A DNA stretch of 64,000 nt from Paludibaculum fermentans. Its GTDB lineage: Bacteria > Acidobacteriota > Terriglobia > Bryobacterales > Bryobacteraceae. The position numbers were made by a program, and so were the translations under genes. The notes beneath the pieces are model-generated. The model saw nothing but the letters and a program-made list of their open reading frames with translations. It was not told the DNA's origin and made no database searches. The stretch is from contig NZ_CP063849.1 of assembly GCF_015277775.1 (NCBI RefSeq), positions 5,161,501-5,225,500 of the forward strand. Direction: 5' to 3'. Positions 32,150-43,808 of the stretch are shown here, piece by piece; the stretch's first letter is position 1; each line of letters opens with the position of its first letter.

Positions 32150-32518
32150 CTATCCCAATACCTTTTGAATCACGGCGAGCAACTGCTCCGGACGGAACGG
32201 TTTCACGATCCAGGCCGTAGCCCCGGCGGTGCGCGCCGCCTGCTTCTTCTCCACATCCGACTCGGTCGTGAGCACCACGATCGGAACGTACTTGAAGGCG
32301 GCATGCGCTCTCAAATGCCGGATCAGCCCAATGCCATCGAGATTCGGCATATTCAAGTCGGTCAGCACCATTCCGAGCGGCATCGGACTGGCGAGTTTGG
32401 ACAACGCATCCTGCCCATCGCGCGCCTCGATTACTTCGTAGCCCGCGGAAACCAGCGTGAACGAAACCATCTGCCTGACAGTGCTGGAATCATCCACAGC
32501 TAGAATCTTCTTATTCAT
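32150..32518 (-). CDS. CheY-like single-domain response regulator
   Basis: A 122-residue receiver domain started at the ATG at 32518, which has GAGGG six bases ahead. Key residues are Asp9 and Asp10 in AVDDSS, phospho-acceptor Asp54 in LTDLNMP, Thr84/Thr85 and Lys106 in VKPF. It has no output domain, so it acts as a diffusible messenger as CheY does. It is the last gene of the chemosensory operon, 73 bases after the soluble receptor-like gene. Whether it drives a flagellar motor, pili or another output is not shown. Confidence 0.92.
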   Translation of the reverse strand: MNKKILAVDDSSTVRQMVSFTLVSAGYEVIEARDGQDALSKLASPMPLGMVLTDLNMPNLDGIGLIRHLRAHAAFKYVPIVVLTTESDVEKKQAARTAGATAWIVKPFRPEQLLAVIQKVLG

Positions 32519-32591
32519 TACCACCCCTCACTCGTTCGCCGAATCTCAGAATCATCGCCACTCTCATGGTCTTGCGCGCCCGGCCTGCCCA

Positions 32592-34373
32592 TTAGAAGAA
32601 CTCGATATCGTTTTCCGGCCCCGCTTCTGCGGCCGCCGGCGCGAGGGAATCCTCACTCGGCGCCTGTAATCCCGTCATGGCGGAATGGATCGATCGTTCT
32701 GACCGCATGGTGTATTGCCCCTGCCCCATTGCCAGGCTCTCAGGACTGGCCTCGGGTGCCTCCGCCGCGGCATCTCGCAGGGCATTGCTGGCCCGGAGCA
32801 GAACCTCGACAGCCGCGTCCTGCGTGCCGAACTCCTGCACGCTGGTGCCCAGGCGCTGCTTCAATCCCTCGATCAGTTCAATCGACCGCCGGTAGCCGCA
32901 CCCGGCCAGCGCTTGTGCTTCCTCCAACGCTGCCCCGTCCTGGCGCAGTCCGGCGATCTCCGCCTCAGTTTGACCAAATGAGTCAGAGGTCGATTCCAGT
33001 AAGTTGGCCTCCGCGCGGATCCCGTTCAGCAGGCTCTCCGTCCTCTCCGATGCCTGCTCCGCCTGCCGCGCCAGCTCCTGGATCGCATTGGCGACAATCT
33101 CCATCGAAGCGCCGGCTTTGCCAAGCCGAGCCGCCTGGATAGTCGCATTCAAGCCGATCCGCTGCATCATCACCCCCACCGCCCGCACTCCGGTGATGGC
33201 TTCCTCAATCTCGCGGAGGCTCTGCCGGACCGTCCATGACGTCGACACCAGCCGGTGCTCCGCTTCGCTGTTCCTGCCCAACAGGTTCAGCGTGGAGGCC
33301 AGGCTCGCCCGGACGCCCTCAAAAAACGCCGGCTCGCTGCCTTCCGATGCACCCAAGAGACGGGTGGCCTCAATCGCCACCTCACCCATGTTCCCCTCGA
33401 TGCGAATCAGAGACTCTCTGATCCTGTGTACGGAGGATTCAAAGACGGTTCGCGCATTGTCCAGTTGCGCGGCCTGCAGGTGGGCGATTGCCGGCAGCAG
33501 GTTCGGGCCCCCAGCCTCGCCGCCTGCCGCCTGCAGCGCCTGTTGTACATGTTCAATCTGCTGCCGGACAATGTCCTGGGATTGCAGGGCCATCACGAGA
33601 TCGCCCACCGACGTCGAGATACCCTCGAACTGCTGAGACAGGTGAGCGTTCGCATTGGCCACCGCACTTCGTTGCTCGCGAATCTTCCGAAGCCCGGCAC
33701 TTGTCTGCTCCATCAGTGGAGCCAGATTCGCCTGCCTCTGTGTCGCTACTGTGCCTGCCTCCGCCGCCGCGGCGGAGACCGTCTGAAGCAACGCCGCGAC
33801 AGACACCGCGCTGGTGCTCACCTGGTCGCGGATCTGCTGTGACAACTCCAGCACCGAGACGGCCAATCCGGCAAAATTCCCCTCCTCGTCGGCGAACCGG
33901 GCACTCTCCACCCGTGTCATGACCGCCAGAACATCAAAAGTGTGCAGAATCGGGCCGAACGCCTCGATGGCGGAGCCTAGCGCCTTCACATCGTGGCGCA
34001 GGCCGTTGACGCAGTCTTTGATCTGCCCCCCTCCGCCATCCCCCTGCGCATCCAGGAGTACGCCCTCCAGCGACGCGATCGAGGCGTCGTGGTTCGAAAG
34101 CTGGCCGGACAGCTCAGACATGTGCCTGGCTACCGCCCGCGCCATCGACTGAATCTCCATCAGGCGCCCGCCCACGGGCAGAAACACTTCCTCCGCCGAC
34201 AGGTTGAACCCGGAGAGATCCGAAGTCACCCGCCGAAGCAAGGCCGCTTCTTCAGCCGTCAGCCCGCTCACCCGGCGGCTGCTTACCGCACGCCCCAGCT
34301 TCTTCCACAGGCGGAGACAGAATTCGCTACCCAGCGCGCGCCTGGCGGCTGTCGCGCCTACTGTGCGTGACAT
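32592..34373 (-). CDS. Soluble receptor-like coiled-coil protein with CheZ-like DxxxQ motif
   Basis: A 593-residue helical protein with no membrane segment. Two stretches resemble the chemoreceptor hairpin tip: about 148-181 ([20 protein letters not shown]) and about 400-436 ([20 protein letters not shown]). Between them, [14 protein letters not shown] contains Asp267 and Gln271 in the DxxxQ spacing of the CheZ active site. The chain ends ENDIEFF, an acidic-aromatic tail like response-regulator-binding peptides. It sits between cheB and cheY, overlapping cheB by 16 bases. It may be a degenerate receptor, a CheY phosphatase or both; the motif match is seen, the function inferred. Confidence 0.8.
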
Positions 34374-35437
34374 AAGCGCACCACTTCGCGGGCGATCTCG
34401 CCGAGCGGCAGCACCCGGTCGACACCGCCAGCCTTAATCGCCTCGGCCGGCATGCCGAACACCACGGACGTCGCCTCATTCTGTGCAATGTTGAAGCTGC
34501 CGGCCTGCTTCATTTCCAACATGCCCCTGGCTCCGTCATCGCCCATGCCGGTCATGATTACGCCAATCACGTTTCGTCCCCCATATCGGGCCGCCGAACG
34601 GAACAGTACATCCACTGACGGCCTGTGGCGGCTGACCAAAGGTCCGTCCCTTAGCTCCACGAAGTAACGGGCGCCGCTGCGCTTCAGCAGCAGATGCCGG
34701 TTGCCTGGCGCGATCAGAACCTGGCCGCGGAGCACCGAATCGTTCTCCGCCGCCTCCTTCACCGCCACGCGGCAACTATGATCCAACCTCTGCGCAAACC
34801 GGGCGGTAAACGCCTCCGGCATGTGCTGCACGATGACGACGCCCGGCGCGTCCAAAGGCAATGCCTCCAGAAACTCACGGAGTGCCTCGGTCCCTCCGGT
34901 CGAGGCGCCCACTACCACTACCGTCTCAGTGGTCTGAATCAGGGCGCGGGACGCCGGAGCGGCAATCACGGCATCCGCCGTCAGCTTCGGCTTCACGCTA
35001 TCGATGCTCACCCGCGGCCGCTGCAGCCTTGCACGCGCAGCCGACTTAACCACGTCGCAAATGCGGACTCTCGACTCTTCCATGAACTCCTTTGCCCCTA
35101 ACTTCGGCTTGGCAATGATGTCCACGGCGCCCTTCTCCAGGGCCGCGAGAGCTGTGTCCGACCCATGCCCAGTCAGCGTCGAACAGACCACAACCGGGAT
35201 CGGATGCTGACTCATGATCCGGTCGAGGAATGTCAGCCCGTCCATGCGCGGCATCTCGATATCCAGGGTCATGACGTCGGGGATCTCCTGCTTGATTCGC
35301 TCCACCGCGACATATGGATCCTGCGCCACGCCAATCACCTCGATCTGTGGATCGGACTCCAGGACTTCCCTCAAAACCTGCCGCACCGAGGCGGAATCGT
35401 CGACGATCAACACCCTCACCCTGCCCGGAGTCTTCAT
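34358..35437 (-). CDS. cheB: Chemotaxis response regulator protein-glutamate methylesterase CheB
   Basis: A 359-residue protein with a receiver domain (Asp12-Asp13, phospho-acceptor Asp59 in [10 protein letters not shown], Lys110) and a C-terminal methylesterase. The catalytic triad is visible as Ser179 in GASTGG, His205 in QHMPEAFT and Asp301 in TGMGDDGA. It removes methyl groups from receptor glutamates and deamidates glutamines. It starts one base after the cheR stop and overlaps the following gene, so the adaptation enzymes are made together. Confidence 0.97.
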
Positions 35438-35438
35438 A

Positions 35439-36338
35439 TCAGTCCTTCCCCTGCACCAGTGCGCCCTCCCGCCTCTGATAAATCGCCGTTCCGATCGACC
35501 TCAGGGGCACATCTAGAGCTGACAGTGATTCCGAATGGCTCGCGAAAAAATACCCGCCCGGATTCAGGTTGCGGCAGATCCTGTTCACCACCTCCTCCTG
35601 AGTCTTCAGGTCGAAGTAGATCAGAACATTCCGGAAGAACACGACATCGAACATGTCTTTGATCCGGTAATCCGCCTCCATGAAGTTCAGCTGGTGAAAG
35701 CTGACCTTCTTGCGCAGGCCAGGGATGATTCTCACCCGCTCCTCCGCCCGGTTGCGGCTCTTCAGCAGATACTTCCCGCGCATCTCCTTCGGGACGGGCT
35801 CAATGAGAGATTCCGCGTAAATCCCGCTTTGGGCATGCCGGAGAACCTTCGTGGAGATATCGGTACCGAGCACTGCGAAGTCGAAACCGGTGTTGACGCT
35901 GGCGTACTCTGCCAGCACCATCGCAATCGTGTAGGGCTCCTCGCCGGAAGAGCATCCCGCCGACCAGACCTTCAGCCGCGAGTCAATCCGGCTGCTGCTT
36001 CGCATCAGGGTGGGGATCGCGATATTCCGCAGAAATTCGAAGTGCCCGGCTTCTCGAAAGAAGTCCGTCTTATTCGTCGTCATGGCGTTGATCAGGTGCT
36101 CCCGCTCACTGCCGTGGGAAGCGGCGAAGAAGTACTCCTCATACTCATTGAGCGAGCGCATCTTGAGCTCTCGCACCCGGCGCATCAAACGGCTCTGCAC
36201 CAACGGCATCTTCGATTCCGGCATCTTGATGCCAAGCTGGCAGGTGATGTAATTTGCAAACCGCGCAAATCCCTCCCGGGAGAGTTCGATCAGGCCATCC
36301 GGGACGTCTCCATTCACTCCAATATCAGCCCGCCTCAT
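35439..36338 (-). CDS. cheR: Chemotaxis protein methyltransferase CheR
   Basis: A 299-residue protein starting at the ATG at 36338, which has AAGGA close upstream. It has the CheR N-terminal helical domain ([34 protein letters not shown]) and a SAM-dependent methyltransferase domain ([32 protein letters not shown]). It methylates chemoreceptor glutamates and, with CheB, sets adaptation. No C-terminal TPR is present. The MCP encoded in this operon lacks a visible NWETF-type tether at its C-terminus. Confidence 0.96.
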
Positions 36339-36474
36339 GCCATCCTTCCCCTTTCCAGCCGCTGCGCTGCCGCGCCGGACAGGCGCCAACGCCTCGCACC
36401 ACCCGAATCCAGCTCATTCGCCAGATTCGCAACTGACGCCGAAATCGTGAGCCTCACCCGGAACGGCCGGCACC

Positions 36475-36858
36475 TCAACTCGACTGCCCTTGAGGGCTGC
36501 CCTGTATCGCCGCGCCGACCGCCGCCAATAGCTGCTCCTTCGAAAAGGGCTTTCTCAGCGTCTGGCAAGCCCCCATGAGCCGGGCAACCTTCAACATGTC
36601 TCGCGCACCGCCCATCCCGCTCATCGCCACGATGGGAACCTCCGGCCATTTGGCCCGCCGCGCGCGGATCACCTCCAGTCCGTCGCCGTCCGGCATGTAG
36701 ATGTCCGTAACGATTAGATCTACGGTCTCCGACTGGAGCGTCAGTGCGGCGTCCGTCCACCTTGAGAACACACCCACCTCGAGTCCCGCGGATTCGAGCA
36801 TGTCCCGAACCGACTCGAGAACCGACAGGGAGTCGTCAATTATCATGATTTTCGGCAT
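36475..36858 (-). CDS. Single-domain response regulator
   Basis: A 127-residue receiver domain from the ATG at 36858. It has the acidic pair in MIIDDS (Asp8-Asp9), phospho-acceptor Asp52 in VTDIYMPDGDG, the switch Ser80 in VAMSGMGG and Lys103 in LRKPF. It is separate from the CheY-like protein at the operon end, so the CheA kinase has at least three receivers here including CheB. One of them could act as a phosphate sink. The gap of 136 bases to cheR is the largest in this part of the operon. Confidence 0.9.
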   Translation of the reverse strand: MPKIMIIDDSLSVLESVRDMLESAGLEVGVFSRWTDAALTLQSETVDLIVTDIYMPDGDGLEVIRARRAKWPEVPIVAMSGMGGARDMLKVARLMGACQTLRKPFSKEQLLAAVGAAIQGSPQGQSS

Positions 36859-36888
36859 TGTTATTTCCATCCCGCGGTCGGTCACGGC

Positions 36889-37404
36889 TCAACTCGGGGC
36901 GCCCTCCAGGCTCATCGGGCGGTCTTCCCACGACGGCTCCGGATCACCCGGCGAAGTGAGTTGCTCGCAGGAGAAAACGGCATTGACGTCCAATATGATG
37001 ATGAAGTCTTCACCACGCTTCCCCATGCCCCGGATGAACTCGCTCCGCCACTGCATCGCAATTCTGGGCGCCGGAACTGTGTTGCTGCCATCCAGTTCGA
37101 TGACTTCGTGGACACTGTCCGCGATCCCCCCCAGCACGGCAGGCTGCCCGGCCAGTTCCAGCTCCATCACAATGATCCTGGTGTGCACGGTGTCGGCTTG
37201 CGGGGGCAGTCCGAATCGCAACCGCATATCCACCACGGGAGTCGCTTGCCCGCGGACATTGACGACTCCGCGCATATAGGCCGGAGCCGTAGGCACCTTG
37301 GTAACCTGGCAAACCTCCAGCACCTCACGCACTTGGGCTACATCGATCGCAAACAGCTCGTTCCCGAGCTTGAAGGTCATGTATTGACAGCTCTCGGCCT
37401 GCAT
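36889..37404 (-). CDS. cheW: Chemotaxis coupling protein CheW
   Basis: A 171-residue SH3-like coupling protein with the family pattern YMTFKLGNELFAIDVAQVRE, VPTAPAYMRGVVNVRGQATP and DFIIILDVNAVFS. It links CheA to receptors in the signalling array. It follows the MCP gene by 20 bases and precedes the response regulator by 30. A C-terminal extension of about 25 residues rich in Pro, Ser and Glu goes beyond the usual CheW end. Confidence 0.96.
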   Translation of the reverse strand: MQAESCQYMTFKLGNELFAIDVAQVREVLEVCQVTKVPTAPAYMRGVVNVRGQATPVVDMRLRFGLPPQADTVHTRIIVMELELAGQPAVLGGIADSVHEVIELDGSNTVPAPRIAMQWRSEFIRGMGKRGEDFIIILDVNAVFSCEQLTSPGDPEPSWEDRPMSLEGAPS

Positions 37405-37424: not shown

Positions 37425-39251
37425 CTACTCTTGATACCGGGAGAACTCGCCATCCCGTGCGTCCGCGTTGCCGGCATTGTCGTCGAGGTCGATACTCGCT
37501 CCACTTCCCAGCACCTGATGCATCTGCGCCAATCCGGCCGTAGTCGGCCTGGCCGCCGCCGGCCTGCTGCCGGATATCGCGGTGCGCTGTCCGCGGCCCT
37601 GGTGCCTGTGCGAGGTCCTGAAGAGTTGCTCGTCCCCAGTCTTGAAAAACCCAATGCTGGCCTGCAGCACTTCCGATTGACTTGACAGCTCTTCGGCCGT
37701 GGATGCCATCTCTTCCGAAGCCGCTGCATTCTGCTGGATCACCTGATCCAGTTGCTGCATGGCCTTGTTCACCTGATTGGCCCCCACGCTCTGCTCCAGG
37801 CTCGCCGCCGCGATCTCTCGAACCAACTCCGCCGTCTTCTGGATGTCCGGAACCAGCCGGCTTAACAGTTGCCCCGCCCCTTCAGCCACCCGTACCCCCT
37901 CCACGGTCAACCGGCTGATCTCGGCCGCGGCTGTCTGGCTGCGCTCGGCCAGCTTGCGGACCTCCGAGGCCACCACGGCAAATCCCTTGCCGTGCTCACC
38001 CGCCCTCGCCGCCTCCACCGCCGCGTTCAATGCCAGCAGATCCGTCTTGCGGGCGATCTCTTCGATAATGTTGATCTTCTCCGCAATCTGCTTCATCGCT
38101 CCGGCAGTCTGCACAACGGCATCCCCGCTCGCCCGCGCATCCTCAGAAGCCTTCGAAGCGATCTTGTCCGTTTGCCGGGCATTGTCGGCGTTCTGCTGCA
38201 CGCTGGAAGCCATCTCCTCCATCGACGAGGTACTCTCCTCCGCGGCCGCCGCCTGCTCCGTGGCGCCTTGTGCCAGTTGCTGGGCAGTCGAACTCATCTC
38301 CTCGCTGCCGGTTGCGACATTGCCCGCCGCGGTCGCCACGTTCGACACGGTTTTTCGCAGGTTCGTCAGCATTCGGACGAGCGCGTGCCCCAACTTGTCC
38401 CGCTCTGAGCGGGCATTGGCATGCACCGTCAGATCACCTTCCGAGATACTGGCCGCCACTTGAGCTGCTGCGTTCAGGTTGTCCACCATTCCGTTCAGGG
38501 CCATCAGCATCTGCCCGAATTCGTCGGTCGACCTCACCTCCGCTTTGTTCGACAGGTCACCTTCGGACACCTGGTTCACCAGCTTGACCGCCGCAGCCAG
38601 GGGCTTTGTGAGACTGCCCGCCACCAGGATCGAGATCAGCAGGGCCATCGATAATGCAATGACCAACCCCACAATGATTCCCATGCGGGCACGGCTCACG
38701 GCACCTTCCACACCCTGTGAGGCGCGATCCGCACGCGCCTTGTTGTAATTCACGAGGTTCGTACTTGCCTCCAGGTAACGCAGAAACAGAGGTCTCTGCC
38801 GGATCGCCAACTCCAGCGCCTGCTTCACCGCTTCCGGGGTCCTCTGTTTGCTCATTGCGAAAATCCGGTCCGCTGCACCGTTGTAATCGGCCCGCGCCGC
38901 CTTCAGGCGGTCAAACAGCTCTCGATCCTTGTCATCCGACAGTGATTTCTCATAGGTCGCGTACATCGTCGTGATTCGTGTGCGCAGATCGTGCACTTCC
39001 GTATCCAGGCGCTCCATCTCCTCCCGGCTGCTGCTGATGATGTGCTGCAGCTCAAGACTGTAGGCGGCCTGCGTGTTCGCTTGAATCTGTCCGATGACAT
39101 AGACTCCGGGCAAGGCCGCCTGCGTCACAAGCGCGGAGTCCTGGTTAATCCGCTCCACCTGGCTGTATGCGAACACTCCGAGCACGAGGGCAATCGCGAT
39201 GACGATTCCGAATCCTGCTGAGATTCGCGTCCCGATCTTCCAGTTATTCAT
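37425..39251 (-). CDS. Methyl-accepting chemotaxis protein with 4HB-type sensor and two HAMP-like modules
   Basis: A 608-residue receptor. Membrane helices lie at about 10-28 and 190-212, flanking a four-helix-bundle ligand domain of about 160 residues. A HAMP domain follows at about 213-263 and a second HAMP-like unit at about 263-303 ([12 protein letters not shown] repeats [11 protein letters not shown]). The signalling hairpin tip is at about 397-420 ([20 protein letters not shown]). A flexible tail of about 55 residues ends the chain, without an NWETF-type peptide. It feeds CheA through CheW. Ligand unknown. Confidence 0.95.
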
Positions 39252-39370: not shown

Positions 39371-41440
39371 TCATGTGGCCGGCGCGTAGTCCGTGGTCTG
39401 CTCGCTCGCCATATCCGGCAACCTCGCGCCAGCCTGGAGGCAGCCTCTGGACCCTGTGCCGGTACCTGCCGCGGGGTTCGCCTGCGCCATCCTCACAATC
39501 GCGGGAATGTTGAGAATCAACGCCACACGGCCATCGCCCATAATCGTCGCGCCGGACACCACTTCGATGTCCCGGTAATATCCGCCCAGCGACTGGATGA
39601 CCGTCTGATGGGTGCCAAGCACAAAGTCGACGACCATCCCCACCCGTTGCTCTTCATGCTGGACAATCACGACCTTCTCGATCGGCAGCGCCGCGCCGTC
39701 CATCCTGAACATGCGCCTCAGGTCGATATAGGGAACCAGCTCTCCGCGCACTGCAATCAGGTTTCGCCCGTTGCTGCGGCATCGTTGCGAACGCAATAGC
39801 TCGACATTCTCATTCACCACCGCCATCGGAACAATGAACTGATCGTTGCCGATCTGGATCAGCAGCCCCTCGATAATCGCCAGCGTGAGGGGCAGGGTGA
39901 TGCTGATTCGTGTGCCCTTGCCACGTTCGCTGGTGATCGCCAGACTGCCGCGCAACGTGTCGATTTGCCGCTTCACCGCGTCCATGCCAACACCGCGCCC
40001 GGATACGCTTGTCACCTTGCTGGCCGTCGAGAACCCGGGCAGCAGGATCAGCCCCTGTAGCTCCCTTTCGCTGAGACTGGCATCCGCCGCAATCAACTGC
40101 TTCTCCACCGCCTTCGCCCTCACCGCGTCAAGATCGATACCCCTTCCGTCGTCCTCCACGCAAACCACGACGTTTGAACCAATGTGGGTGGCGGACAAGT
40201 GCACCTTTACACGCCTCGGTTTGCCTCTCGCCTCCCGCTCATCAGGAAGTTCCGCTCCATGGTCCAGGCAGTTGCGCAGGCAGTGCACCAGGGGCTCTCC
40301 CAATTGATCGAGGATGCTCTTGTCCAGTTCGGTCTCAGCCCCCTCCGTCAGGAGGTCTGCTTCCTTCCCCAACTCATTCGAGAGGTCATGAACAAGCCGG
40401 CGGAACCCTCCGAATAAAGTGCCGATAGGCAGCATCCGGATGCCCAGCACGTTATCGCGCAACTCCGCCACCAATCGCTCCAGTTCCTGCACGGGATTCG
40501 CCAGCTCCGGCAGCCTGTGCTGCGAAACACTTTGAGCCAGGCGCGACTGATTCATCACCAGCTCGCCCACAAGGTTTACCAACCGGTCCAACCTGCTCGA
40601 TGGAACGCGAACAGTCGACTCTTTCGCCACGCTCTTCTTCGAGGATGTAGAATTGTTGGTCCGTGTGGCCGCAATGGCGCCTGGAACCTGGACCTCCGGT
40701 GCGCGAACGGTGCCCTTGACCACTCCCCCAGCGGGTTTCACTTCCAGGAGACACTCATCTTCCACAAAGATGAACACGTCCCGCACCGCGTTTTCGTCGC
40801 AGTTGGCAGTGAGCCGAATGCTCCACCATAAGTAACATTGGTCCGGCTGGATCCCATCCAGCTCCGGAACCAGATCGGTATGCGCCACCACCTCACACGA
40901 CCCGAGGCGCCTGAGATCCTTGAGCAGCGCAAGGGGATTGCCGCCTCTCGCAAACAAGCCCGCGTTGGGCCGGAACTCAATCAGCCAGGCACCCCCTGAT
41001 TCCCCACCACCAGCCGCACTGTCGCTCCTGGCAGCTGCGACAGCCGCTATTCCAGGCTCTCCGGCAGCGGCAAGATTCCGTGCCTCCTCAATCAGCCTCT
41101 CGCTGGATCCTTCCCGCACGTCGTCCCCGCCGAGTTCCGCGTCAAGCAGCAGCCGAATCTGATCCTTGGCCTTCAGAATCAGGGCCGCCAGTACGCCCGA
41201 CACCGGAACCACTCCATCCCTCACCTGGGCGAGCAGGCTCTCGATGTGATGGGTAAACCCGGCCACCGCGTCCAACCCGCACATCGCACCCGACCCTTTG
41301 ATCGTGTGGAAGGCTCGAAACAGGAGGTGGACTGTCTCTTCCGGCGCCTCTCCGGCCGCCATCGAAAGCGCCGCCGTTTCGATTTCCGCCAGCAGCTCCT
41401 CTGCTTCGTGCAGGAAAGTATCGACTGGGTTAGGTGCCAT
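39371..41440 (-). CDS. cheA: Chemotaxis histidine kinase CheA
   Basis: A 689-residue kinase starting at the ATG at 41440 with GGAG six bases upstream. The P1 HPt domain has His45 in FRAFHTIKGSG. A middle region (WLIEFRPNAGLF; LGSCEVVAHTDLVP) is of the type that binds response regulators. Dimerisation, kinase and CheW-like parts follow: N box LVHCLRNCLDHGAE, G1 CVEDDGRGID, G2 SGRGVGMDAVK, and P5 with LIAVRGELVPYIDL. It phosphorylates the local receivers. Its start overlaps the end of the STAS gene by 11 bases. Confidence 0.97.
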   Translation of the reverse strand: MAPNPVDTFLHEAEELLAEIETAALSMAAGEAPEETVHLLFRAFHTIKGSGAMCGLDAVAGFTHHIESLLAQVRDGVVPVSGVLAALILKAKDQIRLLLDAELGGDDVREGSSERLIEEARNLAAAGEPGIAAVAAARSDSAAGGGESGGAWLIEFRPNAGLFARGGNPLALLKDLRRLGSCEVVAHTDLVPELDGIQPDQCYLWWSIRLTANCDENAVRDVFIFVEDECLLEVKPAGGVVKGTVRAPEVQVPGAIAATRTNNSTSSKKSVAKESTVRVPSSRLDRLVNLVGELVMNQSRLAQSVSQHRLPELANPVQELERLVAELRDNVLGIRMLPIGTLFGGFRRLVHDLSNELGKEADLLTEGAETELDKSILDQLGEPLVHCLRNCLDHGAELPDEREARGKPRRVKVHLSATHIGSNVVVCVEDDGRGIDLDAVRAKAVEKQLIAADASLSERELQGLILLPGFSTASKVTSVSGRGVGMDAVKRQIDTLRGSLAITSERGKGTRISITLPLTLAIIEGLLIQIGNDQFIVPMAVVNENVELLRSQRCRSNGRNLIAVRGELVPYIDLRRMFRMDGAALPIEKVVIVQHEEQRVGMVVDFVLGTHQTVIQSLGGYYRDIEVVSGATIMGDGRVALILNIPAIVRMAQANPAAGTGTGSRGCLQAGARLPDMASEQTTDYAPAT

Positions 41441-41825
41441 AGCCGTCTCCAGACTTCCTCTCGCCGGAATCGGGTTTGCCGCTTTCGAGCCCAACCTGCC
41501 CAGTGGGCGGATCACTCCCCGGGTTTACTTCGGTCATGCCCGTCTCATAGAGCGAAAGGCCGAGCCCCTCGCTGCACGCCTTGACGGCCGGCGAGGGCGA
41601 GGCCAGGTTCAGACGGCCGCCCAGCCGATTCGCGGTCTTCACGGCGGAACAGAGCAGCTGAAGCGAGGCCGGGTCGCAGTGAGACACCTCGGACAGATCC
41701 AGTTCGGAAATCGAATGCGCCCCGACAATCCCGCAAAGCGCATCGTGCAGCGCATCTCCGTCGGTGATCTCGATCGTTCCGCTGATCTTCCATTGCCAGC
41801 CTGACGCGGCCTGGTGCAGCTCCAC
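41430..41825 (-). CDS. STAS-domain protein, first gene of the chemosensory operon
   Basis: A 131-residue protein from a GTG at 41825 with AGGGAG six bases before it. Residues 1-95 form a STAS (anti-sigma-antagonist) domain: WQWKISGTIEITDG, then ELDLSEVSHCDPASLQLL. In SpoIIAA the phosphorylated serine lies in DSSGL; here the string is DPASL, so that position is alanine and the site may not be phosphorylated. The tail is disordered. It is coupled to cheA by overlap. A partner could be the SpoIIE-type phosphatase encoded divergently. Confidence 0.87.
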   Translation of the reverse strand: MELHQAASGWQWKISGTIEITDGDALHDALCGIVGAHSISELDLSEVSHCDPASLQLLCSAVKTANRLGGRLNLASPSPAVKACSEGLGLSLYETGMTEVNPGSDPPTGQVGLESGKPDSGERKSGDGYGT

Positions 41826-42188
41826 TTCGTACTCCCTTCAACCGCTCCATCTTTCGGGCAGAGTTCCGCCTGTCCGCCATGCATTCCATCTGCTGGAACG
41901 GCGGGCGCCCCAATCGAGAGTGCCGCCTGGCTGCGCATTGCCCGGCCAGGCTCGAAGTCGCACCCTCGCCGGATCATATCGGCGGGGCACGGAAGAGTTT
42001 GCGATTTTTGCTGGGGGTCGTTGCGGTTCATGCCGCTAGGCACCGGCCTACTCTTGGGGGTGCACCGGCCTATCCCGGCGGCTTTCTTCTTCCTCCTCCC
42101 GTGCAGGGGTGGAGCTGCCTTCCGCACGGCGCCGAAACCGTGAGGGCCCTATCCAATCAGCCTTCACCTTGCGCGATAATCTAGCTCA
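41826..42188. other. 363-base divergent regulatory region
   Basis: This holds no convincing gene. It separates the chemosensory operon from the FHA-GAF-SpoIIE phosphatase and must contain promoters for both. A GATAAT lies at 42168-42173, about 15 bases before the phosphatase ATG, without a clear -35 partner. ACCGGCCTA occurs twice, near 42040 and 42065. Confidence 0.45.
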
Positions 42189-43808
42189 ATGCCTGAACTG
42201 GCAATTACCGCGCCCGACGGCAGCGTCCGCAGCTTGACGCTGGATCAGGGCCATCTCTCGTTGGGACGCTCCGGGGACAACAATCTGCCGTTCCCCGAGG
42301 ACGACTCGCTCTCGCGCCACCACCTGCTTTTCGAATCCTCACCTGGCAACTGGTTTGTCACCGATCTGGGCAGCAAGAACGGCACCTTCGTCAACGGCGC
42401 ACGGATCCCTAACCGCCGACCTCTGTCACCCGGAGACGTCATCTCCGCTGGCCGCGTACGCATCCAGTTCCGCTCCGCCGGACCGCCGCCGGCGCCCGCT
42501 CCCCCCATCTTCGATGAAGACAGCTCGCCATTCCGCTTGACCGCCTCCACCAATCTCGCCAGCGTCCTCTCCGCCCACGTCGCCGGCGCCGCCCGTTCCG
42601 ACCGTACGATCTCCATCCTGTTGCACGCCGGCCGGGAACTCGCCGCTCGCCGCCCGCTGGCGGAACTGTTCCCGCTGATTCTCGATCTGGCGATTGAGGC
42701 CTCCGGCGCCGAACGCGGCATCGTTCTCACCCTCGACAACGCCACTCTCGTCGCGCGCGCCTCCCGCGGCGAAGGCTTCCGCATCAGCAGCGCCATTCGC
42801 GACCGCGTCATCGACCAGCGGGCGTCACTCCTCGTGCGCGATACCAGCCTCGAGGAATCGCTGCGCGACCGCCGCAGTATCGTCACGCAAAGCGTCCGCT
42901 CCTTCATGGCTGTGCCCCTTCAGACCGAAGACCGCGTCTTTGGGCTCATCTACGTGGACGCCAGCGAATTTGTCCACTCCTTCTCTCCCGGTGACCTGGA
43001 CCTGCTCACCGTCATCTCCAATGTCGCGGCCATCCGCATCGAACACGAGCGGCTCGTCGACATCGAACGGCAGGATCGCCTGCGCGAAGCCGAGCTCGAA
43101 CAGGCCGCGCACATCCAGCAGGGACTCCTCCCCGGCGCTCCGCCCGACCTCCCCGGCATCGACATGGCCGGCTTCAACGCCGCCTGCCGCACCGTCGGCG
43201 GCGACTACTTCGACTACCTTCTGACCCCGGACAACCGCCTGGCCATCGCCATTGGCGACGTCGCAGGCAAGGGGATGCCGGCCGCCCTTCTCATGGCGAG
43301 CTTGCAGGCCCGCGTCACCTCGCTGGTGGAGTCCGCGGTTTCCACCGCCAGCCTCGTGCGCAGCCTCAACCGCGGTCTCTCTTCCTACTGCCCCCGCAAC
43401 CGCTTCATCACCTTCTTCCTCGCGATTCTCGATCCAGCCACAGGCGAGTTGCTCTACACCAACGCAGGGCACAATCCGACCATCCTGATGCGGAGCGCGG
43501 GGCAGGTGGAACTGCTGGAAGATGGTGGCCCTGTGCTCGCCATCCTGCCGTCGTTCCCCTACTCGGAGCACCGGACGCAGCTCCACCCCGGCGATCTGTT
43601 GTTCTTGTACAGCGATGGGCTCACTGAAGCCGAAAACACCGACGGCCAGGAATTCGGAGAGAGCCAGCTGATGTCGGTCCTCTCCGCAAACCCCACGGCA
43701 TCCGCGGAAGCGCTGATTACTGCCGTCCGCGGCGCGGTCCAGGAATGGACCGGCGGCCGGGCGCTGGCGGACGACCTCACCATGCTGGCGGTCCGCCTGG
43801 CCCGTTAA
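42189..43808 (+). CDS. FHA-GAF-SpoIIE (PP2C-type) serine phosphatase
   Basis: A 539-residue protein. An FHA domain at about 20-95 shows the phosphothreonine-binding residues GRS (26-28), SRHH (42-45) and GSKNGTFVNG (61-70). A GAF domain follows at about 140-295 (ERGIVLTLDNATLVARAS; FMAVPLQTEDRVFGLIYVDA). The C-terminal SpoIIE/RsbU phosphatase has TVGGDYFDY, IGDVAGKGMPAAL and ADDLTMLAVR with the metal-binding aspartates. RsbU-like enzymes dephosphorylate STAS-domain antagonists. The only STAS gene in the window is divergent to it, 363 bases away. Confidence 0.93.
   Translation: MPELAITAPDGSVRSLTLDQGHLSLGRSGDNNLPFPEDDSLSRHHLLFESSPGNWFVTDLGSKNGTFVNGARIPNRRPLSPGDVISAGRVRIQFRSAGPPPAPAPPIFDEDSSPFRLTASTNLASVLSAHVAGAARSDRTISILLHAGRELAARRPLAELFPLILDLAIEASGAERGIVLTLDNATLVARASRGEGFRISSAIRDRVIDQRASLLVRDTSLEESLRDRRSIVTQSVRSFMAVPLQTEDRVFGLIYVDASEFVHSFSPGDLDLLTVISNVAAIRIEHERLVDIERQDRLREAELEQAAHIQQGLLPGAPPDLPGIDMAGFNAACRTVGGDYFDYLLTPDNRLAIAIGDVAGKGMPAALLMASLQARVTSLVESAVSTASLVRSLNRGLSSYCPRNRFITFFLAILDPATGELLYTNAGHNPTILMRSAGQVELLEDGGPVLAILPSFPYSEHRTQLHPGDLLFLYSDGLTEAENTDGQEFGESQLMSVLSANPTASAEALITAVRGAVQEWTGGRALADDLTMLAVRLAR

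Follow-up and report, generated by a model that had tools for sequence, protein, structure and literature searches.

The window analysed here is a 64,000-nucleotide stretch of the Paludibaculum fermentans genome (contig NZ_CP063849.1, positions 5,161,501 to 5,225,500). It contains nine co-directed genes, which presumably form a single operon, in the order STAS, cheA, transmembrane receptor, cheW, receiver, cheR, cheB, the gene for a soluble chemoreceptor-like protein, and a further receiver. The eighth gene encodes the protein with which this report is concerned. The nine genes are located as follows.

41430..41825, minus strand, STAS-domain protein, encoded first in the operon
39371..41515, minus strand, cheA (Hpt, dimerisation, ATPase and CheW domains)
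37425..39251, minus strand, transmembrane chemoreceptor (4HB-HAMP-MCPsignal) with EFSRY close to the end of its tail
36889..37404, minus strand, cheW
36475..36885, minus strand, CheY-type receiver between cheW and cheR
35439..36389, minus strand, cheR
34358..35437, minus strand, cheB, overlapping the start of the following gene by 16 bases
32592..34373, minus strand, soluble, chemoreceptor-like tandem-hairpin protein with a CheZ-like site (ORF of 593 aa)
32150..32524, minus strand, CheY-type receiver, the likely substrate, with Val at the position of CheY K92

The last of these receivers contains equivalents of D12, D13, D57, N59, T87, E89, and K109. At the other end of the operon, a gene for an FHA-GAF-SpoIIE-type phosphatase (42189-43808, plus strand) starts divergently beside the STAS gene (region 41430-43808). 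A STAS frame was detected at 17 of the 96 family loci described below, including the one in the window. Together, these observations point tentatively to a connection of this chemosensory class with partner-switch regulation.

The highest 19-residue mean Kyte-Doolittle hydropathy of the tandem-hairpin protein was 1.43, compared with 3.03 in the transmembrane receptor of the same operon. Because the peak is this low, no membrane helix is indicated, in agreement with the initial annotation of this sequence, and neither a sensor domain nor a membrane helix was found by Pfam scan and hydropathy. The two profile comparisons that the annotation had proposed came out differently: the protein exceeded the cut-off of Pfam MCPsignal (PF00015; 37.6 versus 34.6 bits, best stretch 373-474), whereas Pfam CheZ (PF04344) gave no match at E<=1, so that membership of CheZ as defined by Pfam was ruled out. 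The CheC, CheX, and FliY family profiles also gave no match at E<=1. Among the ten window proteins scanned (the nine of the operon and the divergent neighbour), none matched Pfam CheZ, CheC, or CheX. The annotation had likewise seen no such gene in the operon, but it missed two CheX genes that lie elsewhere in the genome and score over the cut-off. No CheZ over the cut-off was found in this genome, the best score being 19.0 versus 30.7 bits. The genome also contains two FliG genes, and the idea that the operon works without flagella was therefore set aside. A 1157-aa frame of the same genome (L136, G000:C1:5040183-5040536) matches CheZ weakly (19 bits) and sits near other frames that weakly match the tandem-hairpin protein.

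The features of the protein are as follows; row counts refer to the 85-row alignment described in the next section.

33504..34262, minus strand, first repeat (residues 38-290), a hairpin with a degenerate tip and an intact DxxRQ site
34191..34193, minus strand, codon of Glu61, invariant in 85/85 rows
33831..33932, minus strand, first tip-like stretch (residues 148-181), with Glu156 (85/85) and Phe167 (80/85) kept and the receptor Asn lost
33549..33584, minus strand, QxxDxxRQQxEH motif (residues 264-275), the CheZ-like site
33573..33575, minus strand, codon of Asp267, aligned with CheZ Asp143
33561..33563, minus strand, codon of Gln271, aligned with CheZ Gln147
32595..33503, minus strand, second repeat and tail (residues 291-593)
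33066..33176, minus strand, second tip-like stretch (residues 400-436), with Asn409 (85/85) and Gly421 (84/85) kept and Gln in place of the receptor Glu
32805..32819, minus strand, decayed counterpart of the DxxxQ site in the second repeat (residues 519-523, DAAVE)
32685..32714, minus strand, YTMxSERxxH motif (residues 554-563), with Tyr, Met, and Glu invariant in 85/85 rows
32595..32609, minus strand, C-terminal acidic-aromatic peptide DIEFF

Both tip-like stretches lie exactly where the initial annotation had placed them, D267 and Q271 are present in the 14-residue segment that it had singled out, and the protein ends in ENDIEFF, as it had reported. What that reading overlooked, besides the CheX genes, is that the protein consists of a duplicated unit and belongs to a large family.

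Distribution and conservation of the family

A related-locus search with the single protein gave no match, but an alignment-based search found relatives. With the whole protein as query, 18 of 200 genomes of its own order (its own genome included) were matched at 21 places, most near full length and five over the last three quarters; the distribution of the family within the order is patchy. The protein and the 20 others found in this way make up alignment A1 (21 rows), in which M1, E61, E156, Q264, D267, R270, Q271, H275, Q303, L322, and N409 are invariant, as are Y554, T555, M556, E559, E591, and F593 in the C-terminal part (21/21). A search with the A1 profile against the contigs of 84,980 species yielded at least 383 relatives. 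The best 80 were kept, and their sources include Geomonas, Geobacter, Desulfovibrio, Syntrophobacterales, and Ignavibacteria. In total, 102 loci scored >150 bits (window included), and removal of 6 duplicates left 96 family loci. The motif is found in 95 of these; the exception (L125) is the C-terminal piece of a split gene, the N-terminal piece of which carries the motif.

Of the 96 loci, nine were excluded because of their length, L128 was omitted by choice, and L065 was dropped for being nearly identical to L063; this gave an alignment of 85 rows (A3), 66 of which make up alignment A6. E61, E156, Q264, D267, R270, Q271, H275, N409, Y554, M556, E559, and F593 are invariant in all 85 rows, a conservation that is biased for the pattern used because the 80 kept relatives were found by patterns with the motif or the YTM element. 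The order search used the whole protein and the search of the class around Geomonas the whole A1 profile, of which the motif is a small part. In that other class (around Geomonas paludis), the motif and an N[VIF][ED]LF end were each present in 30 of the 30 best-scoring loci, for which the frame was chosen by the same motifs. The initial annotation had named homologues with neither D267 nor Q271 conserved as evidence against its reading, and both are invariant in 21/21 and 85/85 rows. The conservation of the site is more than chance, and the gene belongs to a widespread family. The protein of the window departs from the family consensus at residues 265-266, where it has SQ rather than FH.

In the class searched around Geomonas paludis (G593), 78 of 146 genomes contain the family, and 1 of the 146 has Pfam CheZ. 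This exclusion of CheZ is not general, since 8 of the 24 family-bearing genomes tested also carry CheZ over the cut-off. In the sample of the window's own phylum, the A1 profile matches 8 of 396 genomes at E<=1e-15, partly via compact or ordinary receptors. A plasmid collection contained one match to the protein, in Methylosinus, which is annotated as 'hypothetical protein' and lies after cheW, cheR, and cheB; it keeps D..RQ, H, and YTM, and its end differs. The compact protein L130 (see below) had no match in the plasmid collection. The family is apparently undescribed: in the open PMC literature, as distinct from subscription papers and non-PMC preprints, no title or abstract opening among the matches listed describes a DxxxQ phosphatase on a receptor scaffold.

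Tandem hairpins and compact relatives

Profile and protein searches also identified compact relatives of 314 to 470 aa, each of which has a single hairpin, whose receptor tip is intact, together with a QF[QE]DxVxQ site and an end such as DVELF, DITFF, or EVDLF. The first half of the tandem protein matched the compact members with a probability of 99.4 (E 4e-21, 252 columns) and the second half with 99.7 (E 5e-27, 280 columns), and the two halves matched one another with 98.0 (E 3e-13, 180 columns, gap-free). Ordinary receptors, used as a control, matched both the first half (92.5, E 5e-7) and the second (97.6, E 3e-12), and part of the likeness between the halves is thus general receptor likeness. 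In the second half, the equivalent positions show no conservation of D and Q. The most plausible reading of the protein is that the compact unit was copied in tandem, with the site kept in the first copy and the tail in the second.

The phylum of the Azospirillum MAG G601 contains receptor-like proteins of 360-412 aa (L204-L213) in which the tip is intact, QFQDRVSQ is present, and the end is mostly of the ITFF type; these proteins adjoin a CheY gene. The compact-site pattern occurs once each in 10 of 398 genomes of this phylum, compared with 0 for the backward control, and nine of the 10 matches are receptor-like frames with the motif (L207 is not).

Spacing was compared in 22 compact members (19 plus L129, L130, and L131), nine of which come from the phylum of G601. 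The distance from the tip Leu to the Asp is 116 residues in 21 of them and 114 in L131; in the protein of the window it is 116 (residue 151 to D267), and in the tandem family the distance from E156 to the Asp is 111 in 80 of 85 rows. By Tsr numbering, we take the +116 place to be the C-terminal methylation helix. D at +116 together with Q at +120 was found in only 2 of 63 tip-bearing frames outside the tandem family, both of them compact members. Q alone at the second position was found in 39 of the 63, i.e. it is frequent in ordinary receptors, and the D is therefore the new and specific element.

The two tips are degenerate in complementary ways. The first keeps the receptor Glu and Phe (residues 156 and 167) and has lost the Asn, and the second keeps the Asn (409) and the glycines (77 and 84 of 85 rows), lacks the receptor Phe, and has Lys in place of the Glu in 55 of 85 rows. 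Both have thus lost residues that are invariant in 17 ordinary receptors from the same loci and the window. These tip residues make array contacts in receptors. The complementarity suggests that the two hairpins may pack on each other as a pseudo-dimer; the model of the whole protein (pLDDT 80.6, pTM 0.56), which has no helix break at the second tip, argues against such packing. The model of the first half (pLDDT 86.6, pTM 0.49) is a hairpin of receptor length with arms at 3-122 (with short breaks) and 130-248 in fragment numbering. In a Foldseek search with this model, the 11 PDB matches with E<=0.001 were all receptor entries, and CheZ was absent among the best 50 matches listed. When A6 and A5 were searched against the sequences of PDB chains, receptors were likewise returned, with no CheZ in the best 60 of 152 and the best 60 of 91 matches, respectively.

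The family thus shares with chemoreceptors (PF00015) its fold, its tip-like stretches, and its operon, and the best Foldseek matches of its first half are receptor cytoplasmic domains. It differs in having no sensor domain or membrane helix, in its degenerate tips, and in the DxxRQ at what is presumably the place of the C-terminal methylation helix. The likeness of both halves and of the models to receptors, the MCPsignal score above its cut-off, and the frequency of Q at the second position would all suit a cytoplasmic chemoreceptor or array scaffold, in which DxxRQ is structural or docks CheY but has no catalytic role, the protein serving only to recruit CheY to the array. We regard such a role as unlikely, given the residues lost from both tips and the rarity of D plus Q at this spacing in tip-bearing frames; an invariant D, R, Q, and H on one helix would also exceed the needs of a coiled coil.

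Comparison with CheZ and other phosphatases

When the family profile was aligned with a CheZ profile of 16 rows (E. coli first), the probability was 91 (E 1e-6, 50 columns), and D267 fell on D143 and Q271 on Q147. The 17 ordinary receptors matched CheZ with a probability of 52 and aligned elsewhere. By halves, the probability was 82 for the first and 3.7 for the second. With hhalign, the first half scored 43.3 against CheZ; none of the 60 block-shuffled CheZ profiles and none of the 60 column-shuffled ones came up to this value (best shuffle, 32.6). The compact members align with CheZ over 139 to 141 columns with a score of 53.2, which was matched by 0 of 120 shuffles, the best of which (44.2) came fairly close. 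With a motif matrix made from CheZ only, the best window of the whole protein was the DxxRQ site in 80 of 85 members; the three misses shown, of five, belong to a divergent group (L043-L047). The matrix scores overlap those of the controls, with 17 of 85 members above the best of 916 other frames (18.2); the protein of the window (14.3) scores below this value and below the best shuffled sequence (15.9) and above the best of the 17 receptors (8.1). The evidence from the matrix is therefore the place of the match rather than its score. Pfam CheZ picked out only one of ten relatives (L113) among the matches listed, at 18.1 bits versus a cut-off of 30.7.

The resemblance extends to the predicted orientation of the site. 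Measured from the hydrophobic centre of their helix, D267 and Q271 lie at 149 and 171 degrees (125 and 165 degrees in CheZ; the helical moments are small, 0.13 and 0.15), and both probably face outward, similarly to CheZ. Burial of the two residues, which the initial annotation had named as evidence against its reading, is thus not indicated by the helical moment, small as it is. By hairpin geometry, Glu61 may lie roughly opposite Asp267. In CheZ proteins, AxxFQ is reported to precede DxxxQ directly (PMC7750401). Similarly, members of the family have an outward-facing DxxxQ on helix two of a hairpin, preceded in most of them by F(Q/H)D. The family also has an acidic C-terminal peptide and lies in a chemotaxis operon near cheY; the repetition of the end peptide in some members is also seen in some alpha-proteobacterial CheZ. 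It differs from CheZ in the distance from the tip to the D, 116 residues as opposed to some 43 for E. coli CheZ (whose tip is reported near residue 100; PMC7750401), in its receptor-type tips, tandem duplication, and invariant R270 and H275, and in its NVELF end, where CheZ ends in IDxLF or LLDSLGF.

In two of the CheZ rows, L152 and L156, the peptide at the end is itself repeated, similarly to five family tails. Short CheZ-like proteins of Ignavibacteria (L145-L148) contain LSLQVQDIT[AS]QQL, a motif midway between those of CheZ and the family, and two others of 505 and 558 aa (L144 and L151) have a large insertion between two matched parts.

Chances are about even that the resemblance to CheZ is convergent, a short motif having arisen on a receptor helix, with a similar chemistry but no common ancestry. 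The match of the tandem family to CheZ covers 50 columns around the motif, and coiled coils produce background matches, as with the ordinary receptors, which aligned elsewhere; the longer alignment of the compact members, with its score beyond all shuffles, argues against convergence. This alternative concerns the history of the protein and not its function, and it overlaps with the explanation preferred below.

The consensus HDxxRQ, in which H is found in 82 of 85 rows, also recalls the HDxxxQ helix of HisKA_3 kinases, which are reported to use DxxxQ as phosphatase residues beside their histidine (PMC3510030). As a phosphotransfer or phosphatase helix of this type, the motif would put the protein on the kinase side. 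This reading was ruled out, being extremely improbable, because the protein of the window has Q266 and not His; in addition, 12 compact rows have Q or E at this position, no HisKA_3 or ATPase domain was found at E<=1 in the protein or among the matches listed for ten relatives, and the surrounding fold is a receptor hairpin.

The CheX, CheC, and FliY phosphatases have a fold other than that of the proteins with a CheZ-like site. CheY dephosphorylation, the role proposed for the family, would be common to both; the family has DxxxQ instead of the ExxN motif reported for CheX, CheC, and FliY (PMC3510030) and gave no Pfam match to them. The nearest reported system is CheT of Sinorhizobium meliloti, which a review describes as a DXXXQ phosphatase of CheY that lacks significant similarity to the chemotaxis proteins of the model pathway and has a CheZ-like predicted structure, in complex with CheR (PMC12654446). 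Set beside CheT by description only, the family shares the DXXXQ motif and the chemotaxis operon and differs in being a receptor-derived double hairpin where CheT is reported to be CheZ-like.

Neighbouring receivers, the C-terminal tail, and proposed function

A short receiver on the same strand was found at 82 of the 96 family loci, within 1.2 kb downstream at 71 and within 3.5 kb upstream at 11; at the other 14 loci there was none within these distances. As in E. coli CheY, D12, D13, D57, and K109 are present in all 82 receivers, N59 in 76, and E89 in 80. For the compact members, a receiver frame on the same strand of the same 3 to 4 kb locus was found in 19 of 19. K92 of CheY is the partner of CheZ D143. 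Among the neighbouring receivers this residue is not maintained as lysine (the one in the window has V, and 38 of 82 have D), and a salt bridge between D267 and K92 like that of CheZ is unsupported.

Every one of the 96 family proteins ends in F, the commonest end being NVELF (50 of 96), and the tail is acidic, with a mean net charge of -4.9 over the last 25 residues. In five tails (L066, L071, L081, L090, and L127), the NVELF-like end motif occurs 2 to 4 times. We suggest that the tail is a putative docking peptide for CheY that replaces the end peptide of CheZ. NVELF has N, E, and F in common with NWETF, and the tail might accordingly be compared to a tether for CheR or CheB, in which case the protein would serve adaptation and not signal ending; cheR frames occur at 74 and cheB frames at 62 of the 96 loci, and the S. 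meliloti phosphatase CheT is reported to bind CheR (PMC12654446). The tether rule xZxxZ requires aromatics at positions 2 and 5 (PMC7390727), and only 4 of the 96 tails, not including DIEFF, fit it, on which basis the tether reading of the tail was ruled out. Several of the receptors encoded at these loci bring their own tails, of the EFEKF kind, and DxxRQ would be left unexplained; a role in adaptation is accordingly quite improbable.

Overall, the family members are most likely CheY phosphatases that use the chemistry of CheZ on a receptor scaffold, and the protein of the window is probably the phosphatase of the adjacent CheY-type receiver, built on a chemoreceptor fold. The initial annotation had already suggested a DxxxQ phosphatase on such a scaffold. 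Its suggestion gains from the conservation and outward face of the site, the in-register match to CheZ, the spacing of 116, the adjacent CheY, and the near absence of CheZ from a class in which the family is common; on the other side stand the missing matches to CheZ in Pfam and among the fold matches listed, and the unconserved K92 of CheY. Further points against it are the frequency of Q at the second position in ordinary receptors, the overlap of the matrix scores with the controls, the two CheX genes of the genome, the 14 loci with no receiver in range, the patchiness of the family in its order, the 8 of 24 genomes that carry CheZ as well, and the SQ at residues 265-266.

Homology, duplication, conservation, position, and gene context are demonstrated by the comparisons above; the following mode of action is what we infer. 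The two tandem chemoreceptor-like hairpins would form a rod, with the active site of the first copy on the outer face of its C-terminal helix. There, D267 would orient the active site of CheY and Q271 would position the water for attack, the roles that D143 and Q147 have in CheZ. In the second copy the site is lost; this copy carries the conserved YTMxSERxxH element and the acidic tail with its aromatic end peptide, which may keep CheY close to the active site. Through its receptor-like tips, the enzyme would be located within the receptor array or next to it. A broader and rather doubtful proposal is that chemoreceptors gave rise to signal-ending enzymes, the methylation helix becoming a CheZ-type site that is embedded in the array and switchable by receptor signalling; the tandem form would then be a single-chain pseudo-dimer, one half with the site and the other with the docking tail, and CheZ perhaps a shortened descendant.

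Should the protein prove to be a phosphatase, a name could be given to a component missing from many chemosensory systems, with two residues to test, and the ending of the signal would sit on a receptor scaffold. The family could explain how many bacteria without CheZ end the chemotaxis signal.
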